From the NCBI GenBank assembly GCA_025355765.1, contig JANXZB010000076.1:1-34710 (forward strand): a stretch of 34,710 bases of DNA, given 5' to 3'. Positions 28,953-34,710 of the stretch are shown piece after piece; position 1 is the stretch's first letter; each line of letters opens with the position of its first letter. The stretch is from Actinomycetes bacterium (lineage in GTDB: Bacteria > Actinomycetota > Actinomycetes > Nanopelagicales > Nanopelagicaceae). Made by a program: the position numbers and the translations under genes. A model generated the notes under the pieces. That model ran no database searches and had not been told where the DNA came from. It saw nothing but the letters and a program-made list of their open reading frames with translations.

Positions 28953-30377
28953 ATGACCCGAAATCGTGTGGAACTTACTTCAGATCAACTGAGCGCGCTT
29001 GGCTTGCTGGTCGATGGGCGCGTCAGCACTTCTCCATCAGTTTTGGATCAACATGGGCGCGACGAATCTGCCTTTCCCCCAATGCGACCATCAGCGGTAG
29101 TCATGGCGTCGTCTACGCTGGAGGTTTCCAAGGTCCTCGCTTACTGCAACGCAGAGCGGATTCCAGTTGTTCCATTTGGTGCAGGGACTTCATTGGAGGG
29201 GCACGTCGTTCCGTTATATGGCGGCATAAGCCTGGATCTGACGAACATGAATCGCATCATTGAAGTGCGCCCCGATGACTTGCTCGTACGTGTGGAAGCA
29301 GGTGTTCAAAGAATTGCCCTCAATGAAAAGTTGGCTAACGACGGACTTTTTTTCTCCGTTGACCCAGGGGCCGATGCGACAGTTGGGGGAATGGCCGCGA
29401 CAGGAGCTGCCGGTACGACGACAGTTCGTTACGGATCCATGCGTGAAAATGTCATGGCGCTCACCGCGGTTCTTGCTGATGGCCAGATAATCCACACTGG
29501 TCGAGATACGCGCAAGCTTTCCGCGGGCTATGACCTGACTCGATTGCTCGTTGGTTCAGAGGGAACTTTGGCGGTGATCACGGAATTGTCACTGCGAGTC
29601 TTCGGTATTCCCGAACAGATGGCTGCGGCCATCGTGCGATTTCCCACGTTAGCGCAAGGCGTCAGCGCTGCAACGGCAATTGTGAAAGCCGGAATTGCGA
29701 TTGCTCGCTGTGAGTTCCTAGATGAAACCAGCATTCGCAATGTCAACGCATACAACTCAATGTCCCTGACGGAGTTGCCGACTCTCTTCTTCGAATTTCA
29801 CGGAACGCCGCAAAGCGTGCAAAATGATGCCAAGGCAGTTCAAGACGTTGTCACCGAATTTGGGGGTTCTGAGTTCGAGTGGACAAGTGATGAAAGTCAG
29901 CGTCGGAAATTATGGAAAGCACGCCATAGTGCGCACTGGGCAATGGTCGCCGCCCATCCTGGCAGGAAGGGAGTGAGCACGGATATGGCAGTCCCCCTCT
30001 CGCAATTGGCCGGTGCAGTGGCGATGGTGGATAAAATCTTCTCAAAACATAAGTTTCCACATTCGATTTTGGGTCATGTTGCGGACGCGAACTTTCACTG
30101 TCTTGTCATTACTGATCCCTCTGTTCCAGAGCAACTCATCGAAATTCGAGAATTGGTGCATGAGATCAATCTGATGATCATCCAGATGGGCGGAACTTGC
30201 ACTGGCGAACACGGGATCGGGGCAGGGAAGATCAACGCCTTGATCATTGAGGCAGCAGATTCGCTAGTGGTAATGAAGGCGATTAAGAAAGCGCTGGATC
30301 CACATTGGATCCTGAACCCAGGGAAAATATTTGAAGCCGAACTAACTTTTTTTGTTCTTGATCCTGGCGTTCTGTGA
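28953..30377 (+). CDS. FAD-linked D-lactate dehydrogenase/glycolate oxidase-type enzyme
   Basis: 474 residues from ATG 28953. FAD-binding type 4 (PCMH) domain at about 35-210 with PVVPFGAGTSLEGHVVP, DPGADATVGGMAATGA and the later GSEGTLAVITELSL. The C-terminal FAD-oxidase cap contains HVADANFHCL and GTCTGEHGIGAGK with the metal/substrate histidines, and ends near ILNPGKIF. These match LDHD/GlcD-type enzymes that oxidise D-2-hydroxy acids to 2-oxo acids, with electrons passed to a carrier or the membrane. A short tail after KIF overlaps the convergent secreted-protein gene by 36 bases. The exact acid (D-lactate, glycolate, other) is not clear. Confidence 0.9.
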   Translation: MTRNRVELTSDQLSALGLLVDGRVSTSPSVLDQHGRDESAFPPMRPSAVVMASSTLEVSKVLAYCNAERIPVVPFGAGTSLEGHVVPLYGGISLDLTNMNRIIEVRPDDLLVRVEAGVQRIALNEKLANDGLFFSVDPGADATVGGMAATGAAGTTTVRYGSMRENVMALTAVLADGQIIHTGRDTRKLSAGYDLTRLLVGSEGTLAVITELSLRVFGIPEQMAAAIVRFPTLAQGVSAATAIVKAGIAIARCEFLDETSIRNVNAYNSMSLTELPTLFFEFHGTPQSVQNDAKAVQDVVTEFGGSEFEWTSDESQRRKLWKARHSAHWAMVAAHPGRKGVSTDMAVPLSQLAGAVAMVDKIFSKHKFPHSILGHVADANFHCLVITDPSVPEQLIEIRELVHEINLMIIQMGGTCTGEHGIGAGKINALIIEAADSLVVMKAIKKALDPHWILNPGKIFEAELTFFVLDPGVL

Positions 30378-31031
30378 TTTTTCAGTCTTTGGAGATGGCT
30401 CGATCTGCTTATTCGCCTTATCGACTGCAACTGGCTTCACCGGAGCGATCGGCTTGACAGGTTCTGTCGGCGCAACCAGAGCCGCCGGCTTGATGGGCTT
30501 TGCGGGAAGGGCTGGCTTGACGACATTTCCCAACGCATCAAGTGCGGTTTTGCGTGCCGCAGCGGCTGCAATAATTGCGGCGTTTTTTGCACTCACAGCT
30601 ACGCTCTTCTGAACTGCTGTGGTGGTCCCCGAAAGGACGCTGGCTAAGTCAGAGTCTGCTTTGGCAATAGCGATTTGAAAAGTTGAAATGATGGACTGGC
30701 GTTTTGCCCGGCGTGCCGCTTGGTCAGATTCGTACTGGGAGTTCGCTAACTTGACGGCTGCGGTGTACTGATCCATTTGAACTTTCCAGGCGGCGTTGTA
30801 CTTCTCCACGGCAGCCTTCCAGTCGGCGCGATATTGGTCCATCGCAGATTGGTAGGCAGCAAGGGCAACTTTGTAGGCGGCTAATTGACCGGCGTATGTC
30901 GTAGCCACAGGGGAAGCGGTGGCTACTGGAGTGGGTGTTGGAGACGAGTCCGTGGCACTAGCGACAGAAACAGAGCCTAGAATCAAACCCACGCAAAGTA
31001 CCGAGGTAGTAAAAACCTGCTTTGATCTCAT
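30342..31031 (-). CDS. Secreted alanine-rich coiled-coil protein
   Basis: 229 residues from the ATG at 31031, with AAGGAG six bases upstream. A cleavable signal peptide (residues 1-27, ending SVASA) is followed by a Thr/Pro-rich linker (DSSPTPTPVATASPV), then a long helical region about 48-165 rich in Ala, Tyr, Gln and Lys (QLAAYKVALAAYQSAMDQYR), which should form a coiled coil. The end is a Pro-Lys-Val repeat (PVKPIAPVKPVAVDK) and a basic tail, perhaps wall-binding. No enzyme motif; family not recognised. It is divergent from the two-component system at 31194, and the shared 162-base gap holds a direct repeat, so it may be a target of that regulator (inference). Confidence 0.8.
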   Translation of the reverse strand: MRSKQVFTTSVLCVGLILGSVSVASATDSSPTPTPVATASPVATTYAGQLAAYKVALAAYQSAMDQYRADWKAAVEKYNAAWKVQMDQYTAAVKLANSQYESDQAARRAKRQSIISTFQIAIAKADSDLASVLSGTTTAVQKSVAVSAKNAAIIAAAAARKTALDALGNVVKPALPAKPIKPAALVAPTEPVKPIAPVKPVAVDKANKQIEPSPKTEKSQNARIKNKKS

Positions 31032-31048
31032 TGATTGCTCCTTGCCTT

Positions 31049-31070
31049 CATAAAGTCAAGAGGCTTTATG
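31049..31070. repeat. Inverted repeat in the leader of the secreted-protein gene
   Basis: CATAAAG and CTTTATG form a perfect 7-bp inverted repeat around an 8-base loop, 18 bases upstream of the secreted-protein start. It could be an operator half-site pair or an mRNA hairpin; there is nothing to choose between them. Confidence 0.4.
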
Positions 31071-31088
31071 GGATGATTGTGGGGATAG

Positions 31089-31107
31089 ATTCTGTGCGTA
31101 TTCTGTG
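31089..31107 (+). promoter_or_regulatory. Direct repeat ATTCTGTG with 11-bp period, probable response-regulator site
   Basis: ATTCTGTG occurs at 31089-31096 and again at 31100-31107, separated by CGT, so the repeats are one helical turn apart. OmpR/PhoB-type regulators bind as head-to-tail dimers to such repeats. The site lies 87 bases upstream of the response-regulator ATG and 58 bases from the divergent secreted-protein start. Confidence 0.5.
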
Positions 31108-31193
31108 AAAACCCTCTGGCGACCTTGCGGAAGGCTTCCAGGGGCCCGGTCGGATGGACTAACTGGCTATACCCTCACTGTCTGGAGGACTAG

Positions 31194-31889
31194 ATGAATA
31201 ACCCCTTAGTTTTGATCGTGGACGACGAAGTTGGCGTGCGCGAACTTCTCACTGATGCCCTCAGTCTTGGAGGTTTTGAAACCCTCGAGGCCAAGGACGG
31301 CATGAGCGCGCTCACGCTCATCCGCAAACATAAACCCGATCTTCTGATTATAGATATCAACATGCCCGTGATGGATGGTTTTGATCTGCTCGAGCGCGTT
31401 CGAAGCAGCAAGAACCAAGTGCCAGCGATCATGTTGACGGCTCGCAAGGACCGTACCGATGTCTCAAGAGGATTGCGCTTGGGAGCCGATGACTACGTGA
31501 CCAAGCCGTTCGGATTGGAAGAGTTGCTCCTTCGAGTCCGCGCGATTTTGCGGCGAAGTCAACCTGTCACGGAAGAATTCTCCATACTTACGTGCGGCCC
31601 TATTTCACTTAACGAGGAGACCTACGAAGTATTTCTCAATGAGGAACCTGTCGAGTTATCCAAGACAGAGTTTCGATTGCTTCAGCACTTGCTACAAAAC
31701 AAAGGGCGAGTCTTAACAAAATCCAGTCTTCTCAGTGCCGTCTGGGATATCGACTTTGATTCGGATACCGGAGTCGTCGACACGTATATTTCATACCTGC
31801 GTAAGAAGTTCCACTCGGATTATTTCGACGGGATAAAGACCGTGCGTGGTATCGGCTTCCAGATTATCGAGCCCAAAGAGGCGAAGTGA
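31194..31889 (+). CDS. OmpR/PhoB-family response regulator
   Basis: 231 residues, ATG 31194 with GGAGGA at 31184-31189. Receiver domain with acidic pocket IVDDE, phosphoacceptor Asp54 in IIDINMPVMDG and Lys104 in YVTKPFG; the C-terminal winged helix (about 130-228) has the recognition region DTGVVDTYISYLRKKF and ends TVRGIGFQI. This is not MtrA: the DNA-contact region differs clearly. It resembles the TrcR/PrrA group. The stop overlaps the kinase start (GTGA). The trigger and targets are unknown; the direct repeat upstream suggests autoregulation. Confidence 0.92.
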   Translation: MNNPLVLIVDDEVGVRELLTDALSLGGFETLEAKDGMSALTLIRKHKPDLLIIDINMPVMDGFDLLERVRSSKNQVPAIMLTARKDRTDVSRGLRLGADDYVTKPFGLEELLLRVRAILRRSQPVTEEFSILTCGPISLNEETYEVFLNEEPVELSKTEFRLLQHLLQNKGRVLTKSSLLSAVWDIDFDSDTGVVDTYISYLRKKFHSDYFDGIKTVRGIGFQIIEPKEAK

Positions 31890-33247
31890 AATTACGGACG
31901 AGGCTAACTTTAGCCTCGGCTGCGGTGACCTCAATTAGCACCTTGCTCATTGGAGGCTTCGCCGTAAATTCTTCGCATAATTCTGGAATCGCACTATTGG
32001 ATAAATCCCTCAATCAGGTCGCGATCTCAGTTCGAGGTAACACAACGGCTGCCCTTTCTGAAGCTCTGTATTCAGTCCAACAAAGCGATCTGGCTTTGAC
32101 CCTGGTCTATTACACCGTACAACGGCAGCCATCAGTTCTCAATGAATCAAAACTCACAGTCGTACCCAATCCCTCAAGCAGTGAAATGAAAAGAAGCCTC
32201 AAACGTCCCATGACGCACGTCGGGATTGAGAACTTTCGCTTTCGCACCATCTCACTCTCTGATGGTGAGTACTTGGTAGTTGCCGCATCCCTCCATGACA
32301 TCGACAAACGGTATCGGGCAGATCTCCTTCGCCTTCTATTCTTTATTCTCGGCTGTTTGGTAGCGGCTGGAATCGCGACTTGGGTATTGGTCCGGCGCGA
32401 CATGAAACGGATTGAAATTCTGATCGCCACTGCCGGGGATATTTCTCGCGGAGAAACAGACGTACACATTCCGCCCACGCATGGAAATTCTGAGATCGAC
32501 CAACTTGCTGATTCTCTCAACAAGATGGTTGTCGCTTTGCGACGCACCGCCGAAATCGAGGAGCAGGCAGCGGTCAAAATGCAGGACTTCTTGGGGGATG
32601 CATCCCACGAACTGCGTACGCCACTCACAGTCGTAAAAGGCTATGTTGAGTTGCTCGCTGGCCAAGTCATGGTTGATCCGGAAAAGAGATCTCGCGCGTT
32701 CCAGCGAGTGGGCTCGGAAATTGTTCGTATGGAAACGTTGATTTCCGATCTTCTATTTCTGGCCGAATTTGGCGATGTTCCAAATCAAGAATTCTCAAAG
32801 GTTGATATTTCAGAAATCGTGCTCTCGCATTTGGCTGATTTTTCTACTCTTAATGAATCACGACAGATCGAAGCCGAAGTCGAAGAGGCCGTGATGATTG
32901 ATGGTTCAGCGCCACATCTCTCCAGGTTGATATCTAACATATTCGGCAATATCTCAAGGCATACTCCAACAGACGCACCCGTACGTGTGACTTTGAAAAA
33001 ATCGACTGGCAGAGTCGCTGTGTTGATTGAAGACGGAGGTCCGGGTTTGCCAGATGGGGCATACGCCAGCGGAATGCAGGGCTTCCAACGCTTTGATAAA
33101 TCGCGCTCGCGCGAGCATGGGGGTTCAGGATTAGGCATGAGCATAATTGTCGCGATTGCCCGAGAGCATTCAGCCCAGGCTGACCTGCAACGCAGTGATC
33201 TTGGCGGACTGGGAGTCCATCTGACTTTTGGTGATTTGCCAGCATGA
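31886..33247 (+). CDS. Membrane sensor histidine kinase, copy 1
   Basis: 453 residues, GTG start overlapping the regulator stop. First membrane helix about 8-28, extracytoplasmic sensor 29-145, second helix 147-169, HAMP 170-222, HisKA with phospho-His241 in DASHELRTPLTVVKGY, ATPase N box NIFGNISRHTP, G1 box EDGGPGLPDG and G2 box GGSGLGMSI. The sensor has no cysteine or known ligand fold. From codon 102 on, the sequence is repeated in inverted orientation at 33653-34710 with about 87% protein identity (I count about 44 differences in 345 residues). The stop overlaps the ATG of a truncated methyltransferase-like gene. Confidence 0.93.
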   Translation: MKLRTRLTLASAAVTSISTLLIGGFAVNSSHNSGIALLDKSLNQVAISVRGNTTAALSEALYSVQQSDLALTLVYYTVQRQPSVLNESKLTVVPNPSSSEMKRSLKRPMTHVGIENFRFRTISLSDGEYLVVAASLHDIDKRYRADLLRLLFFILGCLVAAGIATWVLVRRDMKRIEILIATAGDISRGETDVHIPPTHGNSEIDQLADSLNKMVVALRRTAEIEEQAAVKMQDFLGDASHELRTPLTVVKGYVELLAGQVMVDPEKRSRAFQRVGSEIVRMETLISDLLFLAEFGDVPNQEFSKVDISEIVLSHLADFSTLNESRQIEAEVEEAVMIDGSAPHLSRLISNIFGNISRHTPTDAPVRVTLKKSTGRVAVLIEDGGPGLPDGAYASGMQGFQRFDKSRSREHGGSGLGMSIIVAIAREHSAQADLQRSDLGGLGVHLTFGDLPA

Positions 33248-33394
33248 CAACTGATTTGACGCAAGCCTTTGATGAGGCACGACAGGCCATCGAAGCCACT
33301 GATTCATTGGTCAGGGTGGTTCTCTCGGGTGCTCGTCGAAATATGACACCTCCTGCGCGGCGAATCGATATCCGCCCGGTGCTAATAAAGACCA
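32190..33394 (+). repeat. Left arm of a long imperfect inverted repeat
   Basis: This 1205-bp stretch pairs with the reverse complement of 33506-34710 without a net gap: paired bases always sum to 66900 (for example the ATGs at 33244 and 33656). In the last 151 bp I count 18 mismatches (88% identity). The spacer is 111 bp. The arm probably continues left through the rest of the kinase, but its partner there lies outside the window. Confidence 0.9.
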
Positions 33395-33505
33395 AGATTT
33401 TGCTTCAAGTCACACAATTTGATGGGCGCCAGACAACTGCAAAAAATTACGAAGTCAAGGATCTAAAAATCTCCGAACTCCTAGAGAGCGGGTATTCAAA
33501 TATTC
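33244..33505 (+). pseudogene. Truncated methyltransferase-like gene, copy 1 (N-terminal 87 residues)
   Basis: Starts with ATG overlapping the kinase stop. MTTDLTQAFDEARQAIEATD, then VVLSGARRN, IDIRPVLIKTK and FDGRQTTAKNYEV resemble the N-terminal extension that precedes the SAM-binding domain in a group of actinobacterial class I methyltransferases of about 390 residues. No SAM-binding motif is reached: at about codon 87 the sequence runs into the reverse complement of the second copy. The frame stays open to 33678, adding 57 residues that are only the antisense of copy 2. Probably a non-catalytic stub; family assignment is moderate. Confidence 0.6.
33395..33505. other. Spacer at the centre of the inverted repeat
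   Basis: 111 bases not shared by the arms, continuing the methyltransferase-like frame of copy 1. The arm ends show a little similarity on both sides (ACCAAGATTTTG against, on the other strand, ACCAGAATATTTG), so the true junction may lie up to about 10 bases inside. No terminator, recombinase site or insertion sequence is seen here. Confidence 0.6.
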
Positions 33506-33656
33506 TGGTCTTTATTAGCACAGGTCGGATGTCGATTCGTAGTGCAGGAGGAGTCATATTTCGACGAGCACCCGAGAGAACTGCCCTGACCAAAGAATCT
33601 GTGGCTTGGATTGCCTGTCGTGCTTCATCGAAAGCCTGCGCCAAATCAGTTGTCAT
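33506..33656 (-). pseudogene. Truncated methyltransferase-like gene, copy 2 (N-terminal about 50 residues)
   Basis: Begins at ATG 33656, overlapping the kinase copy 2 stop in the same ATGA junction as copy 1. Homology to copy 1 runs to codon 50-51 (RPVLIKT), after which the frame continues into spacer antisense to a stop at 33447. Of 18 base differences from copy 1, 14 are at third codon positions, and only 4 of 50 residues differ. Confidence 0.6.
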
Positions 33657-34710
33657 GCGGACAAATTACCAAATGTGAGATGAACTCCCAGACCGCCCAG
33701 ATCACTTCTCTGTAGGGCGACTTGGGCGGAGTGCTCGCGGGCAATGGCAAAAATTATGCTCATGCCTAAACCAGAACCCCCATGTTCCCGGGAACGCGAT
33801 TTATCGAAGCGTTGGAATCCTTGCATTCCGCTGGCATATGCCCCATCTGGCAAACCCGGGCCTGCGTCTTCGATCAGCAGATCCACTCTGCCGACCATTC
33901 TTTTCAAGCTCACACGCACAGGTGCACTTGAGGGAGTATGCCTGGAGATATTGCCGAAGATGTTAGAGATCAGCCTGGCGATGTGTGGTGCCGAGCCGTG
34001 AATCGTCACCGCTTCTTCAATGTTTGCGTCAATCTGCCGCGACTCGTTAAGGGTTGAAAAATCAGCCAAATGCGAGAGCACGATCTCTGAAATATCGATT
34101 TTCGTGAATTCTTGATTTGGGACATCACCGAATTCAGCCAAGAAGAGTAGATCCGATATCAACGTCTCCATACGAACAATTTCAGAGCCCACCCGTTCGA
34201 AGGCGCGCGCTCTCTTTTCTGGATCCGCCATCGCTTTACCTGATAGCAACTCAACATAACCTTTTACAACAGTAAGTGGCGTGCGTAATTCATGAGATGC
34301 ATCCCCCAAGAAATCCTGCATCTTCATTGCTGCCTGCTCCTCAATGAGGGCGGTGTGCCGCAAGGCGATAACCATCTTGTTCAGAGATTCGGCAAGTTGG
34401 TTTATCTCGGAATTTCCTTGTGCGGGTGCGATGTGGACCTCGGTCTCGCCTCGTGAAATATCCCCGGCCGTGGCGATCAAGACTTCGATGCGCTTCATAT
34501 CGCGCCGGACCAACACCCAGGTCGCAATGCCAGCTGCGATCAAGCAGATGAGAATGAATAAGAGAAGGCGCAACAGATCAGCCCGATAACGTTTGTCGAT
34601 GTCATGGAGGGAGGCTGCAACAACTAGGTATTCACCATCTGAAAGAGAAATGGTGCGGAAGCGAAAATTCTCGATCCCTGCGTGCGTCATTGGTCGTTTG
34701 AGGCTCCTCT
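33653..34710 (-). CDS. Membrane sensor histidine kinase, copy 2, 5' end outside window
   Basis: 352 codons visible, equivalent to residues 102-453 of copy 1. It keeps the end of the sensor domain, the second membrane helix (LLRLLLFILICLIAAGIATW), HAMP, the phospho-His motif DASHELRTPLTVVKGY, and the N, G1 and G2 boxes, so it should be active. Differences from copy 1 are spread out, with clusters in HAMP and in the ATPase lid region. It is convergent with copy 1. By analogy, a second response-regulator gene should lie just beyond the window on the minus strand. Confidence 0.92.
   Translation of the reverse strand, partial: RSLKRPMTHAGIENFRFRTISLSDGEYLVVAASLHDIDKRYRADLLRLLLFILICLIAAGIATWVLVRRDMKRIEVLIATAGDISRGETEVHIAPAQGNSEINQLAESLNKMVIALRHTALIEEQAAMKMQDFLGDASHELRTPLTVVKGYVELLSGKAMADPEKRARAFERVGSEIVRMETLISDLLFLAEFGDVPNQEFTKIDISEIVLSHLADFSTLNESRQIDANIEEAVTIHGSAPHIARLISNIFGNISRHTPSSAPVRVSLKRMVGRVDLLIEDAGPGLPDGAYASGMQGFQRFDKSRSREHGGSGLGMSIIFAIAREHSAQVALQRSDLGGLGVHLTFGNLSA

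Follow-up and report, generated by a model that had tools for sequence, protein, structure and literature searches.

Between a two-component operon and a divergent gene for a secreted coiled-coil protein lies a short direct repeat, and the locus raises the question of whether this repeat is a docking site for the neighbouring regulator and which of the two flanking genes it serves. The window analysed here is a whole stretch of 34,710 bp, the entire contig C74 of a 1.70-Mb genome in 138 contigs. Within it, a 162-bp spacer (31032-31193) separates the secreted ORF (30342-31031, minus strand) from the regulator gene (31194-31889, plus strand) and holds two exact twin copies of ATTCTGTG, at 31089-31096 and 31100-31107, which start 11 bp apart and have CGT between them (31089-31107). 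A direct repeat of 11-bp period between the two-component system and the secreted gene had been the original prediction, and both its exactness and its coordinates were confirmed. An exact 8-mer repeat of period 11 arose in 0.29% of 20,000 dinucleotide shuffles of the 162-bp spacer, and one of any period from 9 to 12 in 0.94% of 20,000 shuffles of the same spacer; apart from 31089-31107, the 34,710-bp window contains no other exact run of at least 8 at period 11.

Read on the minus strand, the repeat becomes TCACAGA-N4-GCACAGA, the 7+4+7 layout of PhoB and PhoP boxes, which fits the OmpR/PhoB-family spacing first proposed for it. The element extends past the repeat, with CCTCTGG (31113-31119) and CTTGCGG (31124-31130) in the same 11-bp phase, and across loci the conserved core on the minus strand is TTTTCACAGA-N4-nCACAA. 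The features of the locus are the following.

31124-31130, minus strand: half-site A, CCGCAAG (CTTGCGG on the plus strand), two 11-bp steps upstream of half-site C; CCnCAA is conserved at box positions -19 to -14
31113-31119, minus strand: weak half-site B, CCAGAGG, in the 11-bp phase; weak information at -8 to -2 in 36 promoters
31102-31108, minus strand: half-site C, TCACAGA, which together with the preceding TTT is the most conserved unit; box positions 1-4 and 6-9 are highly conserved in 36 promoters
31091-31097, minus strand: half-site D, GCACAGA, which follows half-site C at a 4-bp spacing (11-bp period); C and D together are the repeat
31076-31081, minus strand: predicted -10 of the secreted-protein gene, CACAAT, its -11A and -7T being box +31 and +35
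31069, minus strand: predicted transcription start of the secreted gene, at box +42, where the start codon of the secreted gene lies in some other genera
31049-31070, minus strand: hairpin CATAAAG/CTTTATG opening the 5' leader of the predicted mRNA; relatives have a stem at the same place
30342-31031, minus strand: secreted coiled-coil protein of 229 aa, with a signal peptide (by eye), a P/T linker, a long helix and a P/K-rich tail; member of a paralogous family
31170-31175, plus strand: possible -10 of the regulator operon, TACCCT, 24 bp before the ATG; TAnnnT occurs 22-25 bp before the ATG in 13 of 15 genus loci
31194-31889, plus strand: OmpR/PhoB-family response regulator of 231 aa (PF00072 and PF00486), the presumed box-binding protein
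31886-33247, plus strand: partner histidine kinase (HAMP, HisKA, HATPase_c)

A second kinase copy (33653-34690) is inverted and partial, and lies within a 1210-bp inverted repeat that reaches the contig end and shows 18% DNA difference. The arms of this inverted repeat (32192-34708), at 32192-33401 and 33499-34708, are 82% alike and hold the cut-off kinase copy and the start of the next gene. In the kinase part, 149 of the 201 differences between the copies fall at third codon positions, and the reading frame cut at the junction here directly follows the kinase in 4 of 4 relatives examined. The inverted copy could be either a join of two related strains (a chimeric contig) or a real inverted duplication. 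The duplicated kinases of the original prediction did not prove general, since the other genomes of the genus with a match carry one gene each: a kinase match (E ≤ 1e-60) was found in 13 of them, the two matches of G007 being two parts of one gene on two contigs and the match of G008 being partial. The regulator-bearing genomes G003 and G012 gave no kinase match at E ≤ 1e-60.

Conservation of the box at regulator loci

The regulator was found in 16 of the 21 genomes of the genus (E ≤ 1e-60), in 67 of 151 genomes and 13 of 17 genera of the family (E ≤ 1e-65), and in 113 of 201 genomes sampled at the order level (E ≤ 1e-68), all 113 of which belong to the same family. We examined 69 regulator loci (L001, L009-L025 and L201-L251), and 67 of them, from 12 genera plus L025, were testable; L248 and L249 were left out on account of contig ends, with only 4 bases upstream in L248 and no start in L249. 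A box with at most 5 mismatches of the 16 specified bases, at most 500 bp from the regulator start, was present at 62 of the 67 testable loci, covering 10 of the 12 genera plus L025, and it reached at most 3 mismatches at 53 of the 67. These counts bear out the conservation that the original prediction had proposed to check upstream of this regulator family. The record of L025 (CAMBGS010000004.1) is titled Bifidobacterium breve; it carries the family's regulator, groups with these genomes and is probably a mislabelled MAG.

No box was found at five of the 67 loci, namely L222 (genus g14) and L233, L236, L250 and L251 (genus g5). These five loci also have no signal-peptide ORF in the stretch examined, and four of them form one clade, L251 being absent from the tree. 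At 59 of the 62 box-positive loci, a divergent ORF has a signal-peptide-like start by a crude rule, the exceptions being L013, L243 and L246. In L243 and L246 the divergent gene beside the box has no obvious signal peptide, and the L246 product looks helical, charged and unlike the rest of the family.

Upstream of 79 outgroup regulators (330 bp, both strands), 0 of 79 stretches had a box at ≤3 mismatches, 5 had one at 4 mismatches and 17 at 5, against a null mean of 6.7. Because 22 of the 79 reach ≤5 mismatches, only closer box matches discriminate by themselves. Enrichment of the box upstream of regulators outside the family was considered and was not clear in this comparison (79 upstreams, null mean 6.7). 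Within the family, the repeat is very probably a real conserved docking site, and one for the neighbouring regulator.

The predicted promoter of the secreted genes

The secreted protein has 8 family matches in its own genome, on contigs C74, C67, C102 and C104, and no match in Pfam or NCBIfam at E ≤ 0.001. Its AlphaFold model from the single sequence had a mean pLDDT of 64.5 and one helix at residues 46-133, with ten-residue means of 84-95 over residues 51-130, and was too weak for a fold search. When the genome of the window was searched with the box, 16 sites were found at ≤3 mismatches, versus 7 with a reversed-pattern control; besides the window site, they include sites directly before paralogues on C102 (one, at 1 mismatch) and on C104 (at 2 and 3 mismatches).

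To describe the promoters of this family, a non-redundant set of 41 was used (40 from the genus and L025), 7 of the 48 ORFs found having been dropped as duplicates or for doubtful starts. The box was present at ≤3 mismatches in 33 of the 41, and 24 of those 33 boxes lie 76-82 bp before the start codon; two promoters, one in L154 and one in L155, had no box (7-8 mismatches). Column counts were made on the 36 promoters with ≤4 mismatches, aligned ungapped on the box alone, with three promoters at 5-6 mismatches excluded. The alignment has C at +4 and +6, AG at +7/+8 and CACA at +15, as well as CCnCAA at -19, two 11-bp steps upstream, with a weak unit between. In it, two direct repeats of 7 bp stand strictly 4 bp apart (CnCA(G) at +4 and CACA at +15), the spacer being fixed in the search pattern, which other spacings would escape.

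All 36 promoters have A at +31 and all 36 have T at +35, which correspond to -11A and -7T in a -10 hexamer located 9 bp beyond the box, and the three excluded promoters carry the same pair. Directly divergent from a regulator gene are 17 of these 36 secreted genes, and 19 are not. At the 62 box-positive regulator loci, A+31/T+35 occurs in 56 and the same pair shifted by one base in 5 (61 of 62 together), the sole exception being L013 (C at +35), whose adjacent secreted gene is missing. In L013 (genome G011) the regulator-adjacent box is kept and the -7T lost, and a family member with its own box lies farther away. The box takes the -35 position at a fixed distance to the -10, which is the class II geometry of PhoB-like activators. 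Given this fixed distance to the -10 and the occurrence of the same box before unlinked secreted paralogues, the box, as far as can be read from the sequence, belongs first to the promoter of the secreted gene. The predicted link between the regulator and the secreted protein is upheld by the fixed -10 geometry, by the box at unlinked paralogues and by the co-occurrence described below.

With the -10 at box +30 to +35, transcription would be expected to start at about +42. An ATG lies exactly at +42 (+43 in the shifted loci) in 23 loci, compared with 0-2 at every other offset from 36 to 57; 16 of the 23 open a frame of at least 100 aa, and a 17th has GTG. By our own reading 15 loci are leaderless, 12 in genus g16, 2 in g9 and 1 in g7. 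In these loci (L207-L210, L214-L221, L226, L227 and L231), the ATG of the divergent secreted gene is at the predicted transcription start. The start codons come from a script and may be wrong; on the secreted side of L016, L017, L209, L210 and L218 they were set by hand. L023 and L235 were rejected as leaderless, since their signal peptide comes from a later start, and others, such as L024, L237, L240 and L242, were rejected as chance ATGs inside a leader. Leaderless mRNAs are probable in three genera (15 loci).

In the window's own genus there is a short leader, the first bases of which are often a hairpin. A strong stem near the 5' end was present in 28 of 38 unselected leaders, versus 4 of 38 upstream control stretches and 9.7% of shuffles, and 15 of 39 leaders singly beat their own shuffles at 5%. 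Covariation was counted on 22 of the 39 leaders, picked for having a hairpin. In this picked set the paired cells, the doubly changed cells and the covariation score (0.423 versus 0.256 in shuffles) exceeded those of all 500 shuffles, and the pairs with double change (6 versus 5.1) and the pair types (15 versus 14.4) were not above shuffles. The inner pairs of the hairpin change on both sides, one pair being GC in 13, AU in 6 and GU in 3 of the 22. The hairpin likely serves mRNA stability.

The regulator side and the presumed binding protein

On the other side of the box, the distance from its end to the regulator start ranges from 13 to 162 bp at the 62 loci, so there is no fixed promoter geometry towards the regulator. 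A phase of 10-11 bp runs through these distances and is strongest at 10.5 bp, with R = 0.53 in 35 sequence clusters (0 of 5000 block-shift nulls), R = 0.47 in 17 (p = 0.001) and R = 0.45 in 10 (p = 0.022); when one member was drawn per cluster, p was <0.0002, 0.008 and 0.067, respectively. Periods of 8, 9, 12, 13 and 14 were not significant, and the start distances on the secreted side showed no comparable phase peak (lowest p 0.049, at period 11, in one of four clusterings). This test was devised post hoc, after the distances had been seen, and the helical phase gives a hint that one box may serve both genes, with an added effect on the regulator operon. At the 15 genus loci, the TAnnnT nearest the regulator ATG lies 52 (two loci), 56 (five), 57 (two), 58, 67, 68 and 140 bp from the box end in 13 of them; no TAnnnT was seen near the ATG in L011 and L013, and L012, L016 and L020 have further candidates. 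Class II geometry on the regulator side was rejected because these distances scatter.

The box might still serve mainly for autoregulation of the regulator operon and stand before the secreted gene as a by-product of the divergent layout. The 10.5-bp phase held on the regulator side, with no comparable peak on the secreted side, agrees with this, as does L013, where the box is kept without an adjacent secreted gene. We consider it improbable, however, as the box with its fixed -10 also precedes secreted paralogues away from the regulator, and the five boxless loci also have no signal-peptide ORF in the stretch examined. In addition, the box ends 13 bp from the regulator start in L247 and 22 bp in L241 (24 in another register), which leaves no room for a promoter between.

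The window regulator is of the OmpR/PhoB family, with the receiver PF00072 and the Trans_reg_C winged helix PF00486 above the cut-off, and it falls below the cut-off of each NCBIfam model among the 25 matches listed; its best PDB match is M. tuberculosis PhoP. In a tree with a midpoint root, the family clade (34 rows, support 100/99) is sister to a 71-row clade with mycobacterial PhoP and L002, a regulator of the window's own genome (G000). Since the family clade lies beside the PhoP clade and not inside it, the regulator may be said to work like PhoP, and we do not class it as an orthologue of M. tuberculosis PhoP. PhoP contacts bases through N212, V213, E215, S216, Y217 and Y220 (PMC4832192); at these positions the residues of the window regulator are G, V, D, T, Y and Y. 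Asn212 of PhoP thus corresponds to Gly in the window, and the relatives shown vary between Gly, Ser, Thr and Asn.

Among the 21 genus genomes, the regulator and the secreted family are co-present in the same 16 and co-absent in the same five (G002, G004, which is 74% complete, G014, G016 and G020). The plain box at ≤2 mismatches gave three sites in these five genomes, two in G014 and one in G016, all at 2 mismatches. Across the family, the pattern of box plus -10 without mismatches gave 65 sites in 49 of the 67 regulator-positive genomes (reversed-pattern control 8), and 18 of the 67 had no exact match. In the 84 regulator-negative genomes it gave 9 sites in 9 genomes, which is background level as the control gave 11 (positive versus negative genomes, Fisher p = 1.6e-15, phylogeny ignored). 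The link between regulator and box is partly confounded, because the regulator and secreted genes adjoin and so come and go as a unit.

A different transcription factor, such as L002, could bind the box and be tied to the window regulator by gene neighbourhood only. L002, the own-genome regulator nearest in the similarity ranking, has a similar recognition helix (DAGIVETYVSYLRKK) and sits in the clade holding PhoP; a site with 3 mismatches is found upstream of the L002 gene, and G014 and G016, where L002 is present and the window regulator absent, hold 2 and 1 sites, respectively, at 2 mismatches. Yet L002 occurs in 19 of the 21 genus genomes, including three of the five without the regulator and the secreted family (G002, G014 and G016), and these three have no box at ≤1 mismatch, no box plus -10 pattern and no secreted family. 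Box presence tracks the window regulator instead, and binding by another factor appears to us just as improbable as a mainly autoregulatory box.

Away from the regulator in other genera, 20 sites of the box plus -10 pattern were opened, 14 in regulator-positive and 6 in regulator-negative genomes. Secreted-family-like genes follow five of the 14 (L252, L253, L258, L259 and L260). Another four (L254-L257), all from genus g9, stand before a conserved non-coding block with its start at +42, and the remaining five precede neither a secreted-family-like gene nor the RNA. None of the 6 opened sites in negative genomes precedes a secreted-family-like gene, and no phosphate gene was recognised among the opened sites. 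The g9 block of about 85 nt folds into an 11-bp stem and two inner hairpins (-32 kcal/mol), with almost no covariation among the four sequences. It had no Rfam match at the gathering threshold and no credible one at E ≤ 5, where one sub-threshold hit fell on the other strand. A covariance model found the RNA in 5 of 151 family genomes, all in g9; the fifth, G028, was outside the model and has a box (3 mismatches by our own count) with A+31/T+35 at the same distance. At L292-L296 (g9), for example L294, the intergenic RNA starts exactly at the predicted transcription start of a box plus -10 promoter. The 5' end, GTCCTTCCGGAGAC, is anti-Shine-Dalgarno-like (UCCUUCC).

In genus g9 the 5' end of this RNA is predicted to lie at GTCCTTCC.

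Proposed mechanism and comparison with known systems

With a probability of about 0.8, we propose that the repeat forms the core of an operator of the PhoP/PhoB type, which the neighbouring regulator would bind, primarily to activate the secreted gene and its paralogues. What the sequences themselves display is the conservation of the box, the fixed -10 geometry, the box at unlinked paralogues and the co-occurrence with the regulator. From these we infer the window regulator as the binder, activation rather than repression, and autoregulation. The adjacent kinase would activate (phosphorylate) the regulator (31194-31889), and the phosphorylated regulator would occupy the minus-strand sequence TCACAGA-N4-GCACAGA as a dimer arranged in tandem; half-sites A and B may take up additional copies. 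The box would then stand in for the -35 of the divergent secreted gene and recruit RNA polymerase to the -10 lying 9 bp downstream. The same box would be the activator site for secreted paralogues elsewhere in the genome, and the bound regulator may act on its own operon too, from the same helix face.

The strictly fixed distance to the -10 could also suggest that the conserved element is an extended promoter of an alternative sigma factor and not an activator site. This is very unlikely in view of the 11-bp direct repeats, with additional half-sites phased to lie on that face too, the 7+4+7 arrangement known from PhoP, and the concentration of pattern hits in regulator-positive genomes. That the repeat arose by chance and has no function is hardly credible, for although 8-mer pairs arise in about 0.3% of shuffles of such a spacer, the element is conserved across 10 genera and its -10 geometry is fixed.

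Beyond the operator itself, we tentatively suggest a dedicated two-component regulon of small-genome actinobacteria. In it, one PhoP-type box would activate an expanding, divergently transcribed secreted coiled-coil family with leaderless or hairpin-led mRNAs and, kept in helical phase at distances that vary, would exert feedback on the operon of the regulator; in one genus the same regulator would also have captured a structured small RNA with an anti-Shine-Dalgarno-like 5' end, paralleling PhoP and Mcr7. Such a system would be ordinary in mechanism, in the grammar of OmpR/PhoB, and new in what it controls; literature searches on acI, Nanopelagicales and Planktophila, judged from the search results alone, returned no paper on such a system. 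The host group is little studied and probably represents freshwater acI actinobacteria (Nanopelagicaceae), as we read it. For a multigene secreted family that matches nothing in Pfam or NCBIfam, the analysis names a regulator, an operator, a transcription start and a set of targets that can be put to the test, and complete or near-complete genomes of relatives with the system are at hand (G013, G028 and G101). It also suggests that the PhoP-type operator grammar may extend beyond PhoP to its sister clade, where a contact residue has changed.

In the CpxRA-CpxP system, a two-component operon controls a small helical secreted protein that is encoded divergently from it, and here, too, a two-component operon is divergent from a secreted helical protein. 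Unlike CpxP, the secreted protein here belongs to a multigene family and matches nothing in Pfam or NCBIfam at E ≤ 0.001. The E. coli PHO box replaces the -35 and has a fixed gap to the -10; likewise, the box here occupies the -35 place and keeps a constant distance to the -10. E. coli PhoB binds in tandem to a pair of direct-repeat units of 11 bp, each made of 7 conserved positions and 4 others (PMC4415409), and two 11-bp direct-repeat units make up the box here. In contrast to E. coli PhoB, the half-site here is of the CACAG type and not CTGTCAT, and no phosphate genes were recognised among the sites opened.

M. tuberculosis PhoP is the nearest solved regulator. Its site consists of TCACAGC repeats of 7 bp that must be spaced by exactly 4 bp, and tri- and tetra-repeats are bound more tightly (PMC4832192); the system described here is alike in its 7-bp TCACAG half-sites, 4-bp spacer and tri/tetra arrays. 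Read by eye, TCACAGG-AAGT-GCACAGC lies upstream of the mycobacterial L038 (= PhoP) and TCACAGG-AAGC-TCACAGC upstream of the mycobacterial PhoP-like L046. In ChIP-seq of M. tuberculosis, 22 of 29 cases had the PhoP motif in the orientation of the gene (PMC4038636), and the box here is similarly orientated toward the secreted gene. Unlike PhoP, the regulators here are in a sister clade, with Asn212 replaced in the window and in most of the relatives shown, and the targets seen are the secreted coiled-coil family and one RNA. PhoP also controls a non-coding RNA, Mcr7 (PMC4038636), and the RNA found among the predicted targets here, in one genus, resembles this arrangement.
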